This document shows positions 4,154-14,675 of a stretch of 39,826 bases of DNA, one piece after another. The stretch covers positions 1 through 39,826 of the forward strand of contig NCRB01000022.1 in the NCBI GenBank assembly GCA_002894665.1, written 5' to 3'. Below the pieces are notes generated by a model that worked only from the letters and a program-made list of their open reading frames with translations, was not told the DNA's origin and searched no databases. This stretch comes from Salinivenus iranica. Its GTDB lineage: Bacteria > Bacteroidota > Rhodothermia > Rhodothermales > Salinibacteraceae. The position numbers and the translations under genes are program-made. Every line of letters begins with the position of its first letter. Within the stretch, counting starts at the first letter, position 1.

Positions 4154-4204
4154 CGCCGGGCGCTACGACGTGTGCTCGGAGGACGGTGCCTCCCCCATCT
4201 GATC

Positions 4205-4580
4205 GTGGCCATCTCGAGCGACCAACGGGAGCCGAGAGATCTCTTTGGGCCTGCCGGACGCGGGCGGGGGCGCCGATCCCGTGGAGGTCTCTCCACTTCG
4301 GGCTGCCGCGGGGCCGCCCTCCGGTCGACACGACGCTCGTTCGTGGGAGGGTGCCTCCTTCCTCCGACCGTGGTCATCTCGAGCGACCAACGGGAGCCGA
4401 GAGATCTCCCGGGGCGTGCTGAAAGCGACCGAGACCGCTGTTGCCGTGGAGGTCTCTCCACTCCGGGCCGCTCCCGGCGGCCCGCCGGTCGAGACGACGC
4501 GGGGTCGAAAGGGTTGCCGTTCCCCGCTCGATCTTGCGTCGTGTCGAGCGAAGGAACCAAGTCGGAAGATCTCCCTGGCG
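4205..4580. repeat. 165-bp-period tandem hairpin repeat, about 2.3 copies
   Basis: A block beginning gt(g)gNcatctcgagcgacc starts at 4205 and 4370. A degenerate third copy (gtcgtgtcgagcgaag) aligns from 4538, so the spacing is 165 bp each time. Inside a unit, GTCATCTCGA near the start pairs with TCGAGACGAC near the end with one mismatch. GAGAGATCTCC pairs with GGAGGTCTCTC with one G-U. Each unit can therefore fold as a long interrupted stem-loop. 165 is divisible by three, so the repeats create long open frames on both strands that carry the repeat into protein; these are judged spurious. The same theme recurs as a single copy at 14676-14721. Confidence 0.75.
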
Positions 4581-6997: not shown

Positions 6998-9900
6998 TCA
7001 CGACGATGCGTCCGTGGGCCCGTCGTACGCCCCAAGGTGCACGGCGGGCTCGTCGTAGCCGAGGAGCGTGGTCTGCACCCATCCCGTGGCCCGGTCCTGC
7101 AGCATCGACAGGGCCGGCACGATCATCATGAGCACGCCCGTGCCGAAGATGATGCCCACCCCCAGGCTCACAGCCATGGGGATGAGGAACTGGGCCTGCA
7201 CGCTCTGCTCGATGATGATGGGAAACAGCCCCAGAAACGTGGTAAGCGACGTGAGCAGGATGGGCCGGAAGCGCATTTGTCCAGCCCGGACGAGCGCCTC
7301 GGGCCAGCTGCGCCCCTTCGCCCGCTCCTCGTTCGCGAAGTCGAGCATCACGAGCGCATCGTTCACGATGACGCCGCTGAGCCCGACGATGCCGAAGATG
7401 CTGAGCAGCCCCAGGGACACGTCCAGCAGCAGGTGCCCAATGATGGCCCCGATCCACGCGAAGGGAATGGTGCTCATGATGACGAACGGCTGCAGGTAGG
7501 ACCGAAAGGGAATTGCCAGGAGGGCGTAGATGGCGAAGAGCGCCAGGAAGAAGCCGATCGCGAGTGAGCTCTGCGCCTTGCGCTGCTGGCGCTGCTGCCC
7601 GCCAAACTGATAGCTCATGCCGGGAATGGCCCGCTGGATGCTGGGCAGCACGGCGGCGTTCAGGGCCTGCGTCACCTCGTTCCCGGTGGTGACCGACGGG
7701 TCCACGTCCGCCGTCACCGTTACCACCCGGCGCCCGTCCTGGCGGTTGATGCGGGCCGGCGCGTACCCGGTCGTAACGTCGGCGACCGTCTCCAGCGGCA
7801 CGGCCGCCCCCGCCGGGGTGCGAATGCGGTACTCGCCGAGGTCCTCCACCGCGTCGCGCTCGTCGTCGGGAAGGCGGGTGTAGACGCGCACCTCATTTTG
7901 CCCGCGCTGCAGGCGGTACGACTCTACCCCGAAGAAGCCGCCCCGGACCTGCTGGGCCAGATCGTTCAGAGTGATGCCGAGCGGGCGGGCCGACGGCTTC
8001 AGGCTGAGCTCCAGCTCGCGCCGTCCCTGCTCCTGGTCCGACTTGATGTCGAACACCCCGGCGAAGCGCTGCAGCGAATCCTGGACCGCCGCGACGGACC
8101 GGTCGAGCCGCTCCTGCGTGGGGGCCGACACCTCCACCGACACGGGTTCTCCTACTGATACCACGCTCGCCGTAAAGGACAGCGAGCGGACGCCCGGCAC
8201 CGTGCCCGTCATCTCGCGCCACCGGTTCTCGAACTGGGTCGACGTGACCGCCCGCTCCTCCGGGTCGATCATCTCAAAGCTCACCTCCGCAAGGTTGGCG
8301 CTCGTGGCCGTAAAGCCGGCCTGGTTGGGGCCGCTGTTGGCGCGGGGCTGCTGGCCGACGGTCACGTACACGTTCTCCACGAGCGGCTGCCCGGCCTCCT
8401 CTTCCAACTTCTCAATCGCGTCGTAGCCGGTGGCTTGCAGCCGCGAGGTCATGCGGGCCGTCTCCTCGGGCGTGGTGCCGGCCGGCATCTCCACCTGCGC
8501 CGTCACCAGCTTGCCCTGCACGCTCGGGAAGAAGGAGAAGCTGATGTACCCGTTGCCCACGAAGCTAAACGCGACGAGGAGCAGGGCCACAGCCCCGCAA
8601 ATGGTGACGCCGTAGCGCCGCGTGGCAAAGCGGAGAGCCGTCGTGAGCGGCCCCCGAACGAACGTCCACAGCTGCGCCGCCACCCACCGGCGGACCCGGT
8701 TCAGCGTCCGGAAGAAGAGGGACTGGTCGTCCGACGGCGTCTCCTGGTCGGGGCGCACCCCACGAGTACTTCCTCCCTCGGATTCTCGGTCGGGGCGCAC
8801 CCCACGAGTACTTCCTCCCTCGGATTCTCGGTCGGGGCGCTCGGAGAGGTGATACGGGAGAATGAAGAGCACCTCGACCAGCGACAGCAGCAGCACGATG
8901 ATAACGATCGTGGGGATGTCGCCGAGGAATTTCCCAATCGTGCCGCCGACGAACAGGAGCGGGGTAAAGGCGGCCACGGTCGTCAGCACCGCGAAGATGA
9001 CGGGGATGCCCACGCGCTGCGTGCCCCGCACCGCGGCCGCCAGCGGATTGCCCTTTTTCTCCTGCTCGGCGTACACGTTTTCCCCCACCACGATGGCGTC
9101 GTCGACCACGATCCCGATCGACAGAATGAAGCCGAAGAGGGAGAGCAGATTGATCGACACGTCCAAGTACTGCATTACGATGAACGTGCCGCTGAAGGAG
9201 AGAAAGATGCCCACCGAGGTCCAGAACGCGAGACGGGGTGCCAGGAAGAGCGTGAGGGTCAGGACCACGAGGAGGAGCCCCAGGATGCCATTCTCGATCA
9301 GCAGGTTGAGCCGACTCCGCAGGTCCTCGGCGTTGTTTTGCCACACGGTCGCGCTGAGTCCGGCCGGCAGCGAGGGGCGCAGGTCGTCGGCGAGGTACGT
9401 GCTCACGGTTTCCTCTACGGCCAGCACCTGCTCGTCCCCCGTGCGGAAGACGTTGAGGACGGCGGCCGGCTTCCCGTTGAAGCGCGTGATGAGGTCGGCG
9501 TTCTCGTCGAAGGCGTCCTCCACCTCCGCAATCTGCCCCAGGCGCACGTTCGCCCCGTCCTCGCGGGTGAGCACCACGATGTCCTCAAAGTCCGCCTTCG
9601 TATAATTTTGCCCTTCGGTGCGCACCGTAATCTCCTCCCCCTCCGTCTCGATGCTCCCGCCCGGCAGGTCGAGGCTCCCCTCCCGCACGAGCCCCGACAC
9701 CTGGCCCAGCGTCAGCCCATACTTTCGCAAGTCGGTGCGCGAGACCTCCACCGAGATCTCGTAGTCGCGCACGCCGGCGATCTGGATAAACGAGATCTGC
9801 GGGTCCTGCGTGAGGTCGTCTTTCACGCGCTGGGCCAGCTCCTTGAGCGACCGTTCGCTGGCGTCGCCGTAGAGGGCCACCTGGAGGGCCTGCTGCCGGT

Positions 9901-10297
9901 TGGTCACCTCCGTGACGATGGGCTCCTCGGCCTCCTCCGGAAAGGCCGTGATCCGGTCCACCTCCGATTTAATGTCGGTCCGGGCGCGCGACAGGTCGGT
10001 CCCTCGCCGGAGCTCGGCGGTCACCACCCCCGCGTTCTCGGTGGCGGAGCCCAGCACCCGGTCGATGCCCTCCACCCCCTCAATTCGGTCTTCGATGCGC
10101 CGCACGATGGACTGCTCCACCTCTTCGGGCGAGCCGCCGGGGTAGGTGACCTGAATCTGCACCTGGTCGAGGCTAAACTCCGGAAACACCTCCTGCACGG
10201 TGGTAAAGGCCGCCGCCCCCCCGCCCAGCAGCAACAGAAGCATTAACAGGTTGGCCGCCACGCCGTTGCGGGCGAACCATTCAATGGCTCGGTTCAT
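6998..10297 (-). CDS. RND efflux pump, inner-membrane permease (AcrB/HAE type)
   Basis: This 1099-residue proton-driven pump subunit would work with the adaptor and outer-membrane factor encoded upstream. The usual RND double layout is visible. TM1 is ANLLMLLLLLGGG, followed by a large periplasmic loop. TM2-6 starts near residue 335 with the TM4 proton-relay pair in GIVVDDAIVVGEN (Asp about 397-398). TM7 is near RYGVTICGAVALLLVAF, followed by a second periplasmic loop and TM8-12 (last helices GVIVNDALVMLDF and GVGIIFGTGVLMMIVPAL). Residues about 485-516, in the cytoplasmic loop between TM6 and TM7, carry an in-frame duplicated 14-residue segment (see repeat). The ATG at 10297 is abutted directly by an iteron array, so there is no upstream ribosome binding site. 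Substrate cannot be predicted. Confidence 0.95.
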   Translation of the reverse strand: MNRAIEWFARNGVAANLLMLLLLLGGGAAAFTTVQEVFPEFSLDQVQIQVTYPGGSPEEVEQSIVRRIEDRIEGVEGIDRVLGSATENAGVVTAELRRGTDLSRARTDIKSEVDRITAFPEEAEEPIVTEVTNRQQALQVALYGDASERSLKELAQRVKDDLTQDPQISFIQIAGVRDYEISVEVSRTDLRKYGLTLGQVSGLVREGSLDLPGGSIETEGEEITVRTEGQNYTKADFEDIVVLTREDGANVRLGQIAEVEDAFDENADLITRFNGKPAAVLNVFRTGDEQVLAVEETVSTYLADDLRPSLPAGLSATVWQNNAEDLRSRLNLLIENGILGLLLVVLTLTLFLAPRLAFWTSVGIFLSFSGTFIVMQYLDVSINLLSLFGFILSIGIVVDDAIVVGENVYAEQEKKGNPLAAAVRGTQRVGIPVIFAVLTTVAAFTPLLFVGGTIGKFLGDIPTIVIIVLLLSLVEVLFILPYHLSERPDRESEGGSTRGVRPDRESEGGSTRGVRPDQETPSDDQSLFFRTLNRVRRWVAAQLWTFVRGPLTTALRFATRRYGVTICGAVALLLVAFSFVGNGYISFSFFPSVQGKLVTAQVEMPAGTTPEETARMTSRLQATGYDAIEKLEEEAGQPLVENVYVTVGQQPRANSGPNQAGFTATSANLAEVSFEMIDPEERAVTSTQFENRWREMTGTVPGVRSLSFTASVVSVGEPVSVEVSAPTQERLDRSVAAVQDSLQRFAGVFDIKSDQEQGRRELELSLKPSARPLGITLNDLAQQVRGGFFGVESYRLQRGQNEVRVYTRLPDDERDAVEDLGEYRIRTPAGAAVPLETVADVTTGYAPARINRQDGRRVVTVTADVDPSVTTGNEVTQALNAAVLPSIQRAIPGMSYQFGGQQRQQRKAQSSLAIGFFLALFAIYALLAIPFRSYLQPFVIMSTIPFAWIGAIIGHLLLDVSLGLLSIFGIVGLSGVIVNDALVMLDFANEERAKGRSWPEALVRAGQMRFRPILLTSLTTFLGLFPIIIEQSVQAQFLIPMAVSLGVGIIFGTGVLMMIVPALSMLQDRATGWVQTTLLGYDEPAVHLGAYDGPTDASS
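8746..8840. repeat. in-frame 42-bp direct repeat inside the RND pump gene
   Basis: Two identical 42-bp units (8746-8787 and 8788-8829) begin GGTCGGGGCGCACCCC, and an 11-base third start follows at 8830. They encode RPDRESEGGSTRGV twice in the pump. The unit contains the self-complementary GGGGCGCACCCC, a hairpin core typical of dispersed palindromic repeats. 42 is a multiple of three and the site is the tolerant cytoplasmic loop between TM6 and TM7, so the reading frame survives. Confidence 0.9.
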
Positions 10298-10380
10298 CGG
10301 TTGAAGGTTGGCAGGCTGAAGGTTGGCAGGTTGGAGGTTGGCAGGTTGGAGGTTGGCAGGTTGGAGGTTGGCAGGTTGGA
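10298..10380. repeat. 15-bp iteron array, pump-side flank of the four-helix-bundle gene
   Basis: Five 15-bp units AGGTTGGCAGGTTGG (first unit variant AGGTTGGCAGGCTGA) run from 10305 to 10379, preceded by the half-unit CGGTTGA touching the pump start codon. The units resemble, but are not identical to, those on the other side of the gene (10847-10928), sharing the GGTTG-N3-GTTG pattern. Confidence 0.9.
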
Positions 10381-10387
10381 GCGGCGG

Positions 10388-10816
10388 TCACTCTGATCCG
10401 TCAATATTGATTTGGTAGGCGACGCTTTCCTCCTGGACGCGGGACGCGTTTGGGCGAGACTTCAGGTACTCGATCAGGCGGAATAGCTGGCGAGACACCG
10501 TTTCGACGAGTTTGTGGGCCGTCTCGAACTCGGATTCCGAGATGTACCCTTGATCGAGGGCGACATAGAGTTGAGCGCGGACCTCCCCCGCCGACCCTCG
10601 GGCGTGTCCAAGGTAGTCGATGAACACGCTCTGGGTGCGGCTCTCAAAGCCTTCGGCAATGTTGCTCATCACCGACACCGCTGCTCGTTGAATCTGGTCG
10701 CGCAGGCCGAAATCCTTCGAGAATGGCTCCTTTCGGGTGTGGTCGTAGACGTGGTTCGTCAGTTTCCGGGCGTTCTGCCACACGTCTAGATCTTCGAACC
10801 GCTCGACCGTTGCCAT
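10388..10816 (-). CDS. four-helix-bundle protein (23S rRNA IVP / bAvd-like family)
   Basis: The gene encodes 142 residues, the usual length for this family of small cytosolic four-helix bundles. Members are found in 23S rRNA intervening sequences and as the accessory protein of diversity-generating retroelements, but most are orphans of unknown role. Family hallmarks are the start FEDLDVWQNARKLTNHVY, LRDQIQRAAVSVMSNIAEG in helix two, FIDYLGHARGSAGEV in helix three, and the closing helix ETVSRQLFRLIEYLKS. The ATG at 10816 matches the family start. It is surrounded on both sides by related 15-bp iterons and sits inside the RND operon between adaptor and pump, where such a protein is not normally encoded. 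It therefore looks like an inserted cassette. No reverse transcriptase, template repeat or rRNA is nearby. Confidence 0.92.
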   Translation of the reverse strand: MATVERFEDLDVWQNARKLTNHVYDHTRKEPFSKDFGLRDQIQRAAVSVMSNIAEGFESRTQSVFIDYLGHARGSAGEVRAQLYVALDQGYISESEFETAHKLVETVSRQLFRLIEYLKSRPNASRVQEESVAYQINIDGSE

Positions 10817-10846
10817 GGCGATGAGATTGAATCTTGGGAGGTGGAC

Positions 10847-10928
10847 GTTGGAAGGTTGAATGTTGGAAGGTTGAATGTTGGAAGGTTGAATGTTGGAAGG
10901 TTGAATGTTGGAAGGTTGAATGTTGGGA
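10847..10928. repeat. 15-bp iteron array, adaptor-side flank of the four-helix-bundle gene
   Basis: Five identical units GTTGGAAGGTTGAAT start at 10847, 10862, 10877, 10892 and 10907, followed by a partial unit GTTGGGA. Two inverted copies of the core (TTCAACC at 10978-10984 and CTTCAACCTT at 10991-11000) lie just before the adaptor stop codon. Transcripts could therefore fold back on the array. Confidence 0.9.
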
Positions 10929-11007
10929 AATCGGATCGGTACAGGGTGGTGGAACGTCTGAACGCCCCGTCTAAACCTTCAACCGTGCCCCTTCAACCTT
11001 ACACCTT

Positions 11008-12246
11008 CTAACGCGAAACCCGAATCCGCATGCTATCGGTTTGCACCCGAAGGTCGGTGGTAATCACGCGGGCGTCGGGATCGAGCGTCGGGGCCAGGTA
11101 GGTCCGTTCCTCCACCGTCTGAATGGGCTCCACCCGCCGCTCGACCAGCATCGAGTCGCCGTCCACGGTCCACACAACCGGGGGCTGGTCCGGCTCGCGG
11201 GTGTGCACGGCCCGGCGGGGCACGACGTGGTAGGTCCCCTCGCGCCGCCCCACAATATCGACCGTCGCGTAGGTGCCCACGGCCAGGGGCGGCGCCTGTC
11301 CGCTCGGGGACGCCCCCTGCTGCGCCGCGGCGGCCGTCGCCTGCTCGTAGGGGGCGGACACGCGCACCACCACGTCGACGGTACGGGTCTGCTCGTCGAG
11401 GGCCCCTTCCACCCGGTGCACCCGCCCCTCCCACGTAAACGTCCGCCCGCCGTACGTGCTAGAGACCGTCGCCGGGAGCGCGGCCGCGCCCGTCTGCCCC
11501 GTCGTGCGCCACAGGTTCTGGATGAGGGCCGCCTTGCTGGAGGCGAGGGACACCACGACCTCCACGACCTCGGTGCCGTACACGGTGGCCACCGGCGTGC
11601 CGGGGGCGACGTACGCCCCCAGATCGGCCTGTTTGGTGCGGACCATGCCGTCGAACGGCACCGTCAGGCGCGTGCGCTCCAGGTTGGTGCGCGCATTTTC
11701 CAGGGAGGCCTCGGCACTTTCCAGGTTGGCACGAGCCTGGGCCAGTTGCGGCTCGTTGAAGATGAGGCGGCCCAGCTCCGTGCTGTCGGGCTCCGGGGCC
11801 TCCCCGGTCCGCTCGCGGATGCGCTCGTAGTCGCGCTCGGCGGCGGTGGCCTCCTCCCGCGCCTGGATGAGCTGGAACGTGGCCTGCGTCACCTGCGCCT
11901 CCGCCTGCGTGACCGCGGTGCGGTAGTCCGACGGATCGATCTGCGCGAGGGGCTCCCCGGCCTCAAACCGCCCCCCGCTCACCAGGGCGTCGGACACCTC
12001 GGTGAGGCGCCCGCCCACCTGTGCCGTCAGCTGAATTTCGCGGACGGGCCGCACCGTCCCGTGTCCCCGCACCTCCAGGCTCCCCGAGCGCACCTCGACC
12101 GGCGTCGTGGAGACGAGCGGCGACTGCGGGGGCGGCGAACTCGTTTCGGGCTGCGGCGCGAAGGCACGGAGGAGCCCCACCACCACGACGGCGCCGACGA
12201 GAATGCTGCCGCCGAGGAGGTACGGGTTGTAATCACGAAAATCCAT
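11008..12246 (-). CDS. RND efflux periplasmic adaptor (membrane fusion protein)
   Basis: The adaptor has 412 residues. It is anchored by an N-terminal membrane helix (YLLGGSILVGAVVVVGLL, about 9-27). A barrel-sandwich/lipoyl half follows (GHGTVRPVREIQLTAQVGGRL). A long alpha-helical hairpin comes next (about 105-190, Ala/Glu/Gln-rich heptads such as AEAQVTQATFQLIQAREEA and LAQARANLESAEASLENA). The second lipoyl half is TRLTVPFDGMVRTKQADLGAYV. The remainder consists of beta-barrel and membrane-proximal domains. It would bridge the pump and the NodT-type factor. It is the third gene of the operon, 39 bases after the outer-membrane-factor stop. In a standard operon the pump would follow directly, but here about 710 bp with a foreign-looking cassette intervene. 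Confidence 0.93.
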   Translation of the reverse strand: MDFRDYNPYLLGGSILVGAVVVVGLLRAFAPQPETSSPPPQSPLVSTTPVEVRSGSLEVRGHGTVRPVREIQLTAQVGGRLTEVSDALVSGGRFEAGEPLAQIDPSDYRTAVTQAEAQVTQATFQLIQAREEATAAERDYERIRERTGEAPEPDSTELGRLIFNEPQLAQARANLESAEASLENARTNLERTRLTVPFDGMVRTKQADLGAYVAPGTPVATVYGTEVVEVVVSLASSKAALIQNLWRTTGQTGAAALPATVSSTYGGRTFTWEGRVHRVEGALDEQTRTVDVVVRVSAPYEQATAAAAQQGASPSGQAPPLAVGTYATVDIVGRREGTYHVVPRRAVHTREPDQPPVVWTVDGDSMLVERRVEPIQTVEERTYLAPTLDPDARVITTDLRVQTDSMRIRVSR

Positions 12247-12285: not shown

Positions 12286-13776
12286 CTACTGGAAGAGGCG
12301 CGGATCCTCCGCCTCCGCGTCGTCGGTCCAGGTGCCCCCAAGTGCACGGTGGAGGGCCAGCCGGGCGTTCACGACCGCCAACTGGGCGGCGGCCCGGCGG
12401 GTACGGGCCTGCAGCAGGCCCCGCTCGGCGTCCAGCAGGGCCACCACGTCGCCCACTCCCCCCTCGTATCGGTCGCGCTGCGTCCGGTAGGCATCGCGGG
12501 CCGTCGCCACCTGCTGCCTGACGTCCCGGAGGCGCTGCTTCTGTTTCTCGTAGGCAACGAGCGCGGCCTTCACCTCCCGAAACGCTGTGAGCACGGTCTG
12601 CTGGTAGGTCGCCGCCTGCTGCTGGTAGCGGGCCTCCGCCGCGTCGAGGTTGGCGCGCAGCCGCCCCCCTTGAAAGAGCGGGGCCGTGAGCTGAGCGGCG
12701 AAGTTGGCAAACCGCTGGTCGAGGTCGATGAGGCTGCTGAGGGCGCTGCTCTGCGTGCCGCCCGTGCCGGTGAGGGACAGGCTCGGCAGCATCTCGGCCC
12801 GGGCCACGCCAATCTGCTGACGCGCCGCCTCCAGTCGGCGGGCCCCCGCCCGCACATCGGGCCGCCGCATCAACAGATCAGACGGCAGGCCCGCCGGCAC
12901 GGGCGACAGGTCGAGTGCGAACGACAAGGAGTCGGGAAGCAGGGCGCGCTCCTGCCCCGCAAACCGCCCCAGCAGCACGGAGAGCTGGCTCCGGGCCTCG
13001 TACAGCTGATTCTCCAACTGCGGCTGCTCCGCCCGCGCCCCCTCCAGGCTCTGCTGGACCGAGTATACCTGGAACGACGAGGCGATTCCCTGGGCGTACC
13101 GGTCCTCCGTGATGTCGAGCCGCTGTTCCAGCAGACCGACGGTGCGCCGCCCCAGCTGCACCTGCCGCTGGAGAGACACGGCCTGGAAGTAGGTTGAGAT
13201 CGTCTGGCTGATGACGGAGATGCGGGCCGTCTGCAGATCGGCGGCCGTGGCAAAGTACTGGTTCAGGGCCGCCTTGCGCTGACTTCGGACCCGTCCCCAG
13301 AAGTCGAGCTCGTAGGACAGGCCAAGCGTGGCCTGGTAGTCGGTAAACTCGAAGCGGTCCGGGCCCTGCCCCCCGCCGATGGCACCGCCGATTCCGGTGT
13401 TGGCGGGCTGGTTCTGGTAGTTGCCCTGCCCATTGGCCGTGGCGCTCGGAAACAGTGGGGCCCGTGCAATCCGGAACTGTGCCGCCAGCTCCTCGACGCG
13501 CGCCTCCGCGGCCCGGAGATCAAAATTTTCGGCCAGGGCGGTGTCCACCAGTGTGGTGAGTGTCGAATCCCCGAAGGCCGTCCACCACCGCTGCGACTCC
13601 ATGCGGGCCGTATCCGCCGCGGCGCTCGGCAGCGTGGTGTCGCCCGGGGCCGACGCAAAGGTGCCGGGCAGGTCCTGCTCGGCCTCGGGCGCGGGCATGG
13701 AGGGCGTGAGCGAGCAGCCCGCCACCGCCAGCAGGCAGGCCAGGACGCCGTACAGACAAGGGCGCAAACGCGTCAT
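12286..13776 (-). CDS. outer-membrane efflux factor, NodT/OprM-type lipoprotein
   Basis: This 496-residue TolC-like channel would form the exit duct of the tripartite pump. The N-terminus is a lipoprotein signal (LACLLAVAGC, Cys about 21). The mature chain has the two repeated OEP units of this family, for example RWWTAFGDSTLTTLVDTALAEN and the coiled-coil ARVEELAAQF in the first half. The conserved LPSDLLMRRPDVRAG lies in the second half, followed by ARAEMLPSLSLTG. Length and motif order are normal for NodT proteins. The start at 13776 lies 41 bases after the TetR stop, supporting co-transcription. Confidence 0.94.
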   Translation of the reverse strand: MTRLRPCLYGVLACLLAVAGCSLTPSMPAPEAEQDLPGTFASAPGDTTLPSAAADTARMESQRWWTAFGDSTLTTLVDTALAENFDLRAAEARVEELAAQFRIARAPLFPSATANGQGNYQNQPANTGIGGAIGGGQGPDRFEFTDYQATLGLSYELDFWGRVRSQRKAALNQYFATAADLQTARISVISQTISTYFQAVSLQRQVQLGRRTVGLLEQRLDITEDRYAQGIASSFQVYSVQQSLEGARAEQPQLENQLYEARSQLSVLLGRFAGQERALLPDSLSFALDLSPVPAGLPSDLLMRRPDVRAGARRLEAARQQIGVARAEMLPSLSLTGTGGTQSSALSSLIDLDQRFANFAAQLTAPLFQGGRLRANLDAAEARYQQQAATYQQTVLTAFREVKAALVAYEKQKQRLRDVRQQVATARDAYRTQRDRYEGGVGDVVALLDAERGLLQARTRRAAAQLAVVNARLALHRALGGTWTDDAEAEDPRLFQ

Positions 13777-13817: not shown

Positions 13818-14468
13818 CTAGTCGCGAGGCGCGAGGCCCCGATAGATCAGATCAAACAGGTGGTCCTTTCGCTCCTCCACGAACGCGTCCCAGTCGCGCT
13901 CGGCGGGCGGGTGCAAAATCTGGACCGTCGGGCGGGCGACGAAGAAATACAGGCACGTCGAGATCACCGTCAGCACCGCGTGGTGCGGGTCCACCGGTCG
14001 AATTTCGCCGGCCTCGACAGCGTCCTCGATCGTGTTTACCAGGATGCTCGGCGGGGTGCGGTCCGTTTTTGTCGCCTCCCGCATGTGCTCGCCGAGCAGG
14101 GTGCCCCCCGCCAGGTTCTCCTGCACCATCAGGCGCATCGCCGCGTCGTGGGTGCGCACAAAGTCGACGTATCCGTCAATGAAGACCCGCAGCGTCTCCG
14201 CAAAGGTCGGGGCCTCCGTCAACGAGATGTCGAACGACGCCATGAACTGCCGCACCGTGTAGGCGAACACGTTCTCGTACAGCGTCCGCTTGTCGCGGAA
14301 GTAGTAGTGCAGCATCGCCTTGTTGATGTCGGCGGCGTCGGCGATCCCCTGCATCCGAGCGCCATTCCGCCCCTCGCGGGCAAACACCTGCAGGGCCGCG
14401 TCGAAAATGGTCCGCTCCGTGTCGGAGTACTCGGAAGGGGCGGACAGATCGGCCATGAGCCGGTGCAT
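13818..14468 (-). CDS. TetR/AcrR-family repressor of the efflux operon
   Basis: The gene encodes about 216 residues. The N-terminal helix-turn-helix domain (about 15-60) shows ERTIFDAALQVFAREG, then IADAADINKAMLHYYFRDKRTLYENVF, the standard TetR recognition region. The C-terminal ligand and dimer domain is divergent, as usual. The frame is open up to an ATG at 14507, but that start would leave only five bases after the palindromic operator at 14513-14536. The ATG at 14468 (or 14456) is therefore preferred. It is the first gene of a four-gene efflux operon with about 40-bp gaps. By family knowledge it most likely represses itself and the pump and is released by a pump substrate. Confidence 0.92.
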   Translation of the reverse strand: MHRLMADLSAPSEYSDTERTIFDAALQVFAREGRNGARMQGIADAADINKAMLHYYFRDKRTLYENVFAYTVRQFMASFDISLTEAPTFAETLRVFIDGYVDFVRTHDAAMRLMVQENLAGGTLLGEHMREATKTDRTPPSILVNTIEDAVEAGEIRPVDPHHAVLTVISTCLYFFVARPTVQILHPPAERDWDAFVEERKDHLFDLIYRGLAPRD

Positions 14469-14512
14469 TGGCGCGAGACGAAAGGATGTAGTGGAATTGA
14501 CTCCCATCCGCC

Positions 14513-14536
14513 TGGTTCAACCATTTGGTTAAACCA
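14513..14536. promoter_or_regulatory. tandem palindromic operator, likely TetR-repressor site
   Basis: Two 11-bp palindromes, TGGTTCAACCA (14513-14523) and TGGTTAAACCA (14526-14536), lie two bases apart. Together they form a longer dyad, and the junction AACCATTTGGTT is itself palindromic. Spacing of 13 bp centre to centre fits two TetR-family dimers. It is immediately upstream of the repressor gene that leads the efflux operon. Promoter boxes were not assignable. Confidence 0.7.
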
Positions 14537-14675
14537 TACGCGAAGATTACAGGATGTCCCGCGCCTCGTCCGATCATCTCCGATCCGGCCCGTGCTCCGG
14601 GGGCTCCAGCGCACAATCGGTTACGACAGAGTAGTGCCGTGTCAACCGTGATTCTCGCATAGAAAAGTCGCCCCC

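Follow-up and report, generated by a model that had tools for sequence, protein, structure and literature searches.

The window, which is the whole 39,826-nt stretch of DNA analyzed, lies in contig C48 of a draft genome labelled G000, with relatives labelled G001 and so on. Its minus strand encodes an RND efflux operon in the gene order TetR, outer-membrane factor, adaptor, and pump. The gaps between the first three genes are 39-41 bp, in line with the roughly 40 bp of the original prediction made from the sequence. The gap between adaptor and pump is 710 bp (10298-11007) and contains one 142-aa IVP/S23 gene among arrays of short repeats, which together are referred to here as the cassette. 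TetR, outer-membrane factor, and adaptor match their family profiles, with the adaptor scoring over the TIGR01730 cut-off, and the pump scores against the NCBIfam RND permease models are under the curated cut-offs. The features, in the operon direction, are:

13818-14507, minus strand: TetR regulator gene (family profile match)
12286-13776, minus strand: outer-membrane factor gene (family profile match)
11008-12246, minus strand: gene for the RND periplasmic adaptor, preceding the cassette (TIGR01730), the last approximately 7 codons exchanged with the cassette
10971-11007, minus strand: left arm, G-rich AAGGTGTAAGGTTGAAGGGGCACGGTTGAAGGTT, reverse complement in type to both other arrays (sequence, TRF; predicted fold)
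10827-10926, minus strand: C/A-rich array of heptads preceding the IVP start codon, AACCTTC/CAACATT in alternation, 7 + 8 bases (TRF score 165)
10388-10816, minus strand: IVP/S23 four-helix-bundle gene, 142 aa (PF05635, E = 8e-35; TIGR02436, E = 1.5e-31)
10298-10381, minus strand: right arm, C/A-rich array of heptads located after the IVP stop and before the pump ATG (TRF score 145)
6998-10297, minus strand: gene for the RND pump, following the cassette (scores under the cut-offs of the NCBIfam RND permease models)

In the operon direction, the G-rich arm directly follows the adaptor stop. Next come a C/A-rich array extending to the IVP ATG, then the IVP gene itself, and finally another C/A-rich array, the last base of which adjoins the pump ATG (array end 10298, ATG 10297). 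TRF reports the pump-proximal array at 10299-10381 with 5.5 copies of a 15-bp unit (95% match), and the one at 10827-10926 with 6.7 copies of 15 bp (90%). Beyond the latter, immediately 3′ of the adaptor stop, inverted cores CTTCAACCTT and CTTCAACCGT are located at about 10971-11007. Hence, the 15-bp arrays on both sides of a four-helix-bundle gene between adaptor and pump, the array reaching the base before the pump start codon, and the inverted cores are all where they had been predicted. What was called two 15-bp iteron arrays does have the period of 15 bp, but there are 3 arrays, facing each other, and each 15-mer is one 7-base and one 8-base unit in alternation; iteron is also the wrong word. 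Iterons are the Rep-binding sites of plasmid origins, and the context of the cassette is a chromosomal-type operon. The cassette has no PADLOC match as a defense system and no Rfam match as a known structured RNA.

Other repeats occur in the window. A near-perfect palindrome or tandem, TGGTTAAACCATT, at 14513-14537 just 5′ of the TetR start codon is a likely operator. A 42-bp unit is present in 2.3 copies with no mismatch at 8746-8840 within the pump gene, adding RPDRESEGGSTRGV repeats, and a 165-bp unit in 1.9 copies (80% match) is located at 4181-4500 in the region upstream of the next gene.

The IVP gene scores 119.7 bits against PF05635 (cut-off 33.8) and 108.9 bits against TIGR02436 (cut-off 24), so it is a member of both families, and the protein has no Pfam match other than PF05635. 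Avd of diversity-generating retroelements has the same fold family, but against the DivGenRetAVD profile the window protein scores 21.7 bits, under the cut-off of 80. Differences between the G000 and G001 versions of the gene are distributed over codon positions as 20/14/74, which indicates purifying selection. The protein is small and widespread in bacteria and is best known from inserts in ribosomal RNA; we know of no function that has been assigned to orphan S23/four-helix-bundle genes. The relatives with a solved structure, 2gsc and 2rld, have 5 chains each, and 2GSC has been described as a homopentameric toroid (PMC4990558). The IVPs of a diverse, multi-phylum set are basic, with a median pI of 9.0. 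The window IVP is acidic, with a pI of 5.4, which counts against the DNA-binding ring proposed below; its genome, which carries 7 IVP genes, appears to be that of a halophile.

Close relatives of the adaptor are found in about 20 genomes besides G000. Eleven genomes including G000 carry an IVP gene between adaptor and pump, which in G016 is degenerate, and the adaptor relatives without the gene have a gap of 51-73 bp. Every site with the gene also has arrays or array remnants, although in varying sequence, with the heptads being CAACCTTC in G000, AACGTTC in G001, G002, G003, and G012, AACCCTC in G006 and G010, and GATTGGG in G022. Within each genome the left and right arms at this site are complementary (11 loci; 26/20000 permutations). 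G000 and G001 are sisters at this site, with 97.1% identity in the adaptor and 98.4% in the pump versus 74.6% in the IVP, and with arrays that differ. One breakpoint, at ...GCATG, precedes the adaptor stop by about 20 nt; the other falls exactly at the pump ATG. The IVP tree clusters G001 with G002, G003, and G012 and not with G000. Taking the conserved flanks, the divergent IVP and arrays, and the tree grouping together, the simplest reading of the G000/G001 difference is that the IVP gene and its arms were replaced jointly. In another pair, G003 and G011, the flanks are 94.6% and 97.9% identical, and G003 has the cassette where G011 has only a 72-bp hairpin. That hairpin is identical in G011 and G007 despite flanks of 84-89% identity, indicating that the gene-less form is exchanged too. 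At some sites IVP genes have stayed across genera, so that the movement of the element is slow. The original prediction, that repeats and gene form one unit, is upheld by the cassette swap and by the presence of repeats wherever the gene is found. Relatives lacking the gene do exist, and the outcome it had set against itself, with all relatives carrying the gene and no repeats, is not what is seen, as only some of the relatives have the gene here.

The arrangement is not particular to efflux operons. To score arms at IVP loci generally, the 300 nt before the gene were aligned by Smith-Waterman to the reverse-complemented 300 nt after it, with permuted pairs as the null; RNAduplex energies over the full flanks were swamped by coding sequence (z of −11.6 even so), which is why Smith-Waterman scores were used instead. 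For 95 IVP loci from the genus, family, and order, own pairs have a mean score of 28.7 versus 20.4 for permuted pairs (SD 0.74, z = 11.3, 0/100000), and 5 orthologous sites tested separately each exhibit complementarity of their own arms. For 75 IVP loci from many phyla, the scores are 36.4 versus 19.1 (z = 28.1); the pattern [SA][VI]x[SA]NIAE[GA][FWC], by which further loci were found in bacterial genomes, covers the main family branch only. Chance complementarity of gene flanks is ruled out by 228 control genes of comparable size, taken from the genomes of these loci, scoring 20.3 versus 19.7 with one of the 228 at 34 or more. Some IVP loci have weak, decayed, or undetectable arms that score at chance level. 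The arms have a period of 7, with lag-7 identity of 0.61 versus 0.29 when shuffled, repeat peaks at 14 and 21, and a minor peak at 8. The inward-pointing strand is G/T-rich with a weak consensus GTTNARA, and 76 of 91 left arms have more G than C. The association of the IVP gene with heptad arrays is solid, and across many bacterial groups the gene is encoded between inverted 7-base arrays. The prediction had treated the cassette as a feature of an RND efflux operon, where it is indeed present, but this was too narrow for an arrangement that is bacteria-wide. Heptad arrays beside IVP genes might pass for CRISPR-like repeats.

Arm sequences vary from locus to locus and yet stay matched within each locus. 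Over 4466 locus pairs without a common flanking gene, how similar the arms are can be predicted from IVP relatedness (r = 0.25, 0/5000 permutations), with similar arms in 0 of 2739 pairs at low protein relatedness and in 15.5% of the closest class. Arms of the type GGGTTACG are common to a proteobacterium and an ignavibacterium, and GTTCAAGG to an acidobacterium and a verrucomicrobium. This correlation fits recognition of the arms by the protein or an element in which gene and arms are inherited jointly, 2 possibilities that the test does not separate.

Arrays also occur without a gene, and their frequency tracks the presence of IVP genes in the genome. After a strict threshold gave too few arrays, a relaxed lag-7 scan with control lags found 45 arrays in 1400 kb from 7 IVP-bearing genomes versus 2 in 1000 kb from 6 IVP-less genomes (control lags 9.6 and 6.0, respectively; binomial p = 7e-9 for the lag-7 contrast), a comparison of 13 genomes only, 7 versus 6 at the genome level, in which the IVP-less genomes cluster in a few families. 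G011 and G004 have IVP genes and few arrays. When gene-less inverted array pairs are sought at a strict threshold, 400 kb of G003 contains only 2 clear ones, with heptad arrays as such being more frequent. In G000, the heptad GCGTATT of IVP locus L014 has 60 matches versus 0 for the reversed pattern, and this family consists of that one IVP locus and many dispersed, gene-less, convergent hairpins, the loops of which are unrelated, as are the neighboring genes. A MITE reading is rejected, because the loops are unrelated and the copies do not share an interior. Between G000 and G001, one hairpin of this gene-less kind differs by an inverted loop and 2 additional heptads; at a second one, a hairpin of a different heptad family has taken its place within flanks that are 98% identical. 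Copy-number change is thus seen at a gene-less hairpin between species, rather than at the efflux cassette within one strain. At a gene-less hairpin, L384 (G000:C85) versus L403 (G001:C3), G001 has approximately 1.1 kb extra beside the array, apparently an oxidoreductase-like gene. The original prediction was to fail if the 15-mers were widespread without the gene, but the array copies at other places have their heptads in common with an IVP locus present in the genome, and are found almost only in IVP-bearing genomes.

Whether the arms are matched as DNA or as RNA can be asked from their transcription context and their mismatches. Flanking genes are tandem at 84 of 94 IVP loci (background 63%, p = 1e-8), and among the tandem-flanked loci the IVP gene is sense in 59 and antisense in 25, with orientations assigned by a codon-composition heuristic. 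Both arms are therefore usually in one transcript, irrespective of the IVP orientation. Mismatches between arms on the operon strand at 68 loci comprise 113 G-U versus 136 A-C, compared to 6 versus 0 in tRNA acceptor stems from the same DNA. Since there is no G-U excess, arm pairing seems to be maintained in DNA rather than RNA, which is the alternative that we favor, and selection on an RNA hairpin is not supported. A promoter-like motif, CGTTA-N14-17-GTGTCT, is found at 19 loci, where it precedes the IVP start by a nearly fixed distance of about 64-93 nt (for example, L111, L091, L099, L096, and L082), 14 of which have the IVP gene antisense to the host operon; a stricter form has 3 matches in 400 kb of G003.

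These results bear on several explanations. The cassette could be an RNA element like the intervening sequence (IVS) of 23S rRNA, in which case the arms would form an mRNA hairpin excised by RNase III, with the IVP gene as a passenger in the loop that is tolerated because it is removed. The Coxiella 23S IVS does have the same parts, namely an S23p open reading frame (ORF), a 28-bp terminal inverted repeat, GACAGAT heptamers, and excision by RNase III (PMC4990558); the arms here are usually cotranscribed as well, and the predicted fold of the window segment pairs the outer arms, the left one with the pump-proximal array. However, the z-score of that fold is only −1.6, the G-U excess is absent, and loop inversion and cassette swaps are left unexplained, making this account unlikely. 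Alternatively, the IVP ring might be a sequence-specific RNA regulator that wraps heptads in a leader to control its own gene and the downstream one, in the manner of TRAP. TRAP wraps RNA triplets. Arrays ending at the IVP and pump start codons, pentameric relatives, and arms that track IVP relatedness would all suit such a regulator. It is difficult to reconcile with antisense IVP loci, where a left arm upstream of the promoter-like motif would be outside the IVP mRNA, or with G-rich and C/A-rich strands that cannot both be the RNA ligand, or with gene-less hairpins at unrelated genes, and we consider it the least credible of the explanations. Nearly as improbable is that replication slippage and strand switching alone make the arrays and that IVP genes merely settle there. 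In many genomes no class of long repeats is more common than heptamers (PMC4692102, PMC4679880), and the observed loop inversion and copy change would suit recombination and slippage. A proposal that replication alone can make heptads (cited in PMC4679880) counts against the DNA-element reading given below, as does the fact that no target-site duplication was noticed. On that account, though, arrays should not nearly vanish in IVP-less genomes, nor should IVP phylogeny predict the heptads at unrelated sites.

On balance, we think that 10298-11007 is probably one copy of a bacteria-wide, 2-part DNA element, an IVP gene with convergent arrays of a locus-specific heptad, working in a way that resembles REPIN-RAYT. 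Computation shows the reverse-complement arms of the unit, their period of 7, their matched divergence, their tracking of IVP phylogeny, and their exchange with the gene; as to mechanism, we infer the following. A pentameric, usually basic IVP ring would bind the heptad array in DNA with roughly one heptad per subunit, and binding combined with replication slippage, strand switching, and recombination between arms would keep the arrays matched and spread them. Recombination or strand switching between arms would invert loops, and gene-less hairpins may spread as a consequence. A ring reading successive heptads could account for the same heptads facing each other and for heptads that track IVP phylogeny. 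The place of a transposase would be taken by a four-helix-bundle protein that is kin to the 23S rRNA IVS ORF and has no known catalytic domain, and the 23S IVS would be an rRNA-inserted form of this element. In the RND operon, the cassette would be either passive or tuning pump expression.

The working analogy is REPIN-RAYT, which consists of REP sequences with a TnpA-REP. The likeness is in a gene with inverted repeats on both sides, of which pairs without a gene are scattered over the genome, here the GCGTATT family, and in a repeat family that follows the protein. Unlike REPIN-RAYT, there is no Y1/HUH (TnpA-REP) transposase, PF05635 being the only gene of the cassette; the heptad arrays are of variable length instead of fixed palindromes, and the loops of gene-less copies are unrelated. 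The 23S rRNA IVS of Coxiella and Leptospira has the same protein family, with its ORF in the loop of a terminal inverted repeat and heptamers beside it (PMC4990558), and the cassette likewise has terminal inverted repeats around its ORF. The cassette differs in being positioned between protein-coding genes, the RND adaptor and pump, and not in a 23S rRNA gene, and in occurring in either orientation, with locus-specific arms and no sign of selection for RNA pairing. G-rich heptameric repeats of Xanthomonas (GGGAATC) and Nostoc (GGGGATT) are similarly intergenic 7-base arrays, of which X. campestris has about 70 pairs in convergent orientation, but no protein partner is named for them (PMC4692102); TAACTGA and other heptamers are also known (PMC4679880, PMC2700814). 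A link between S23/IVP genes and heptad arrays was not found in searches of an open-access library, although it could exist elsewhere, subscription papers and preprints being outside that scope. The 23S IVS with S23p, heptameric repeats, and REPIN-RAYT are known separately.

With the association, orphan S23/four-helix-bundle genes and heptameric intergenic repeats that had no cause become components of a single unit, which provides a testable partner for the orphan protein as well as for the 7-base repeats that had lacked an explanation. More tentatively, and with considerable doubt, IVP/S23 proteins may be sequence-specific ring proteins that make and maintain heptameric DNA repeats while having no transposase, recombinase, or reverse transcriptase of their own, with the 23S IVS and the known heptamers as special cases. 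If true, the protein driving this repeat system would be no known recombinase, and the presence of the same protein in 23S rRNA hairpins would be explained.
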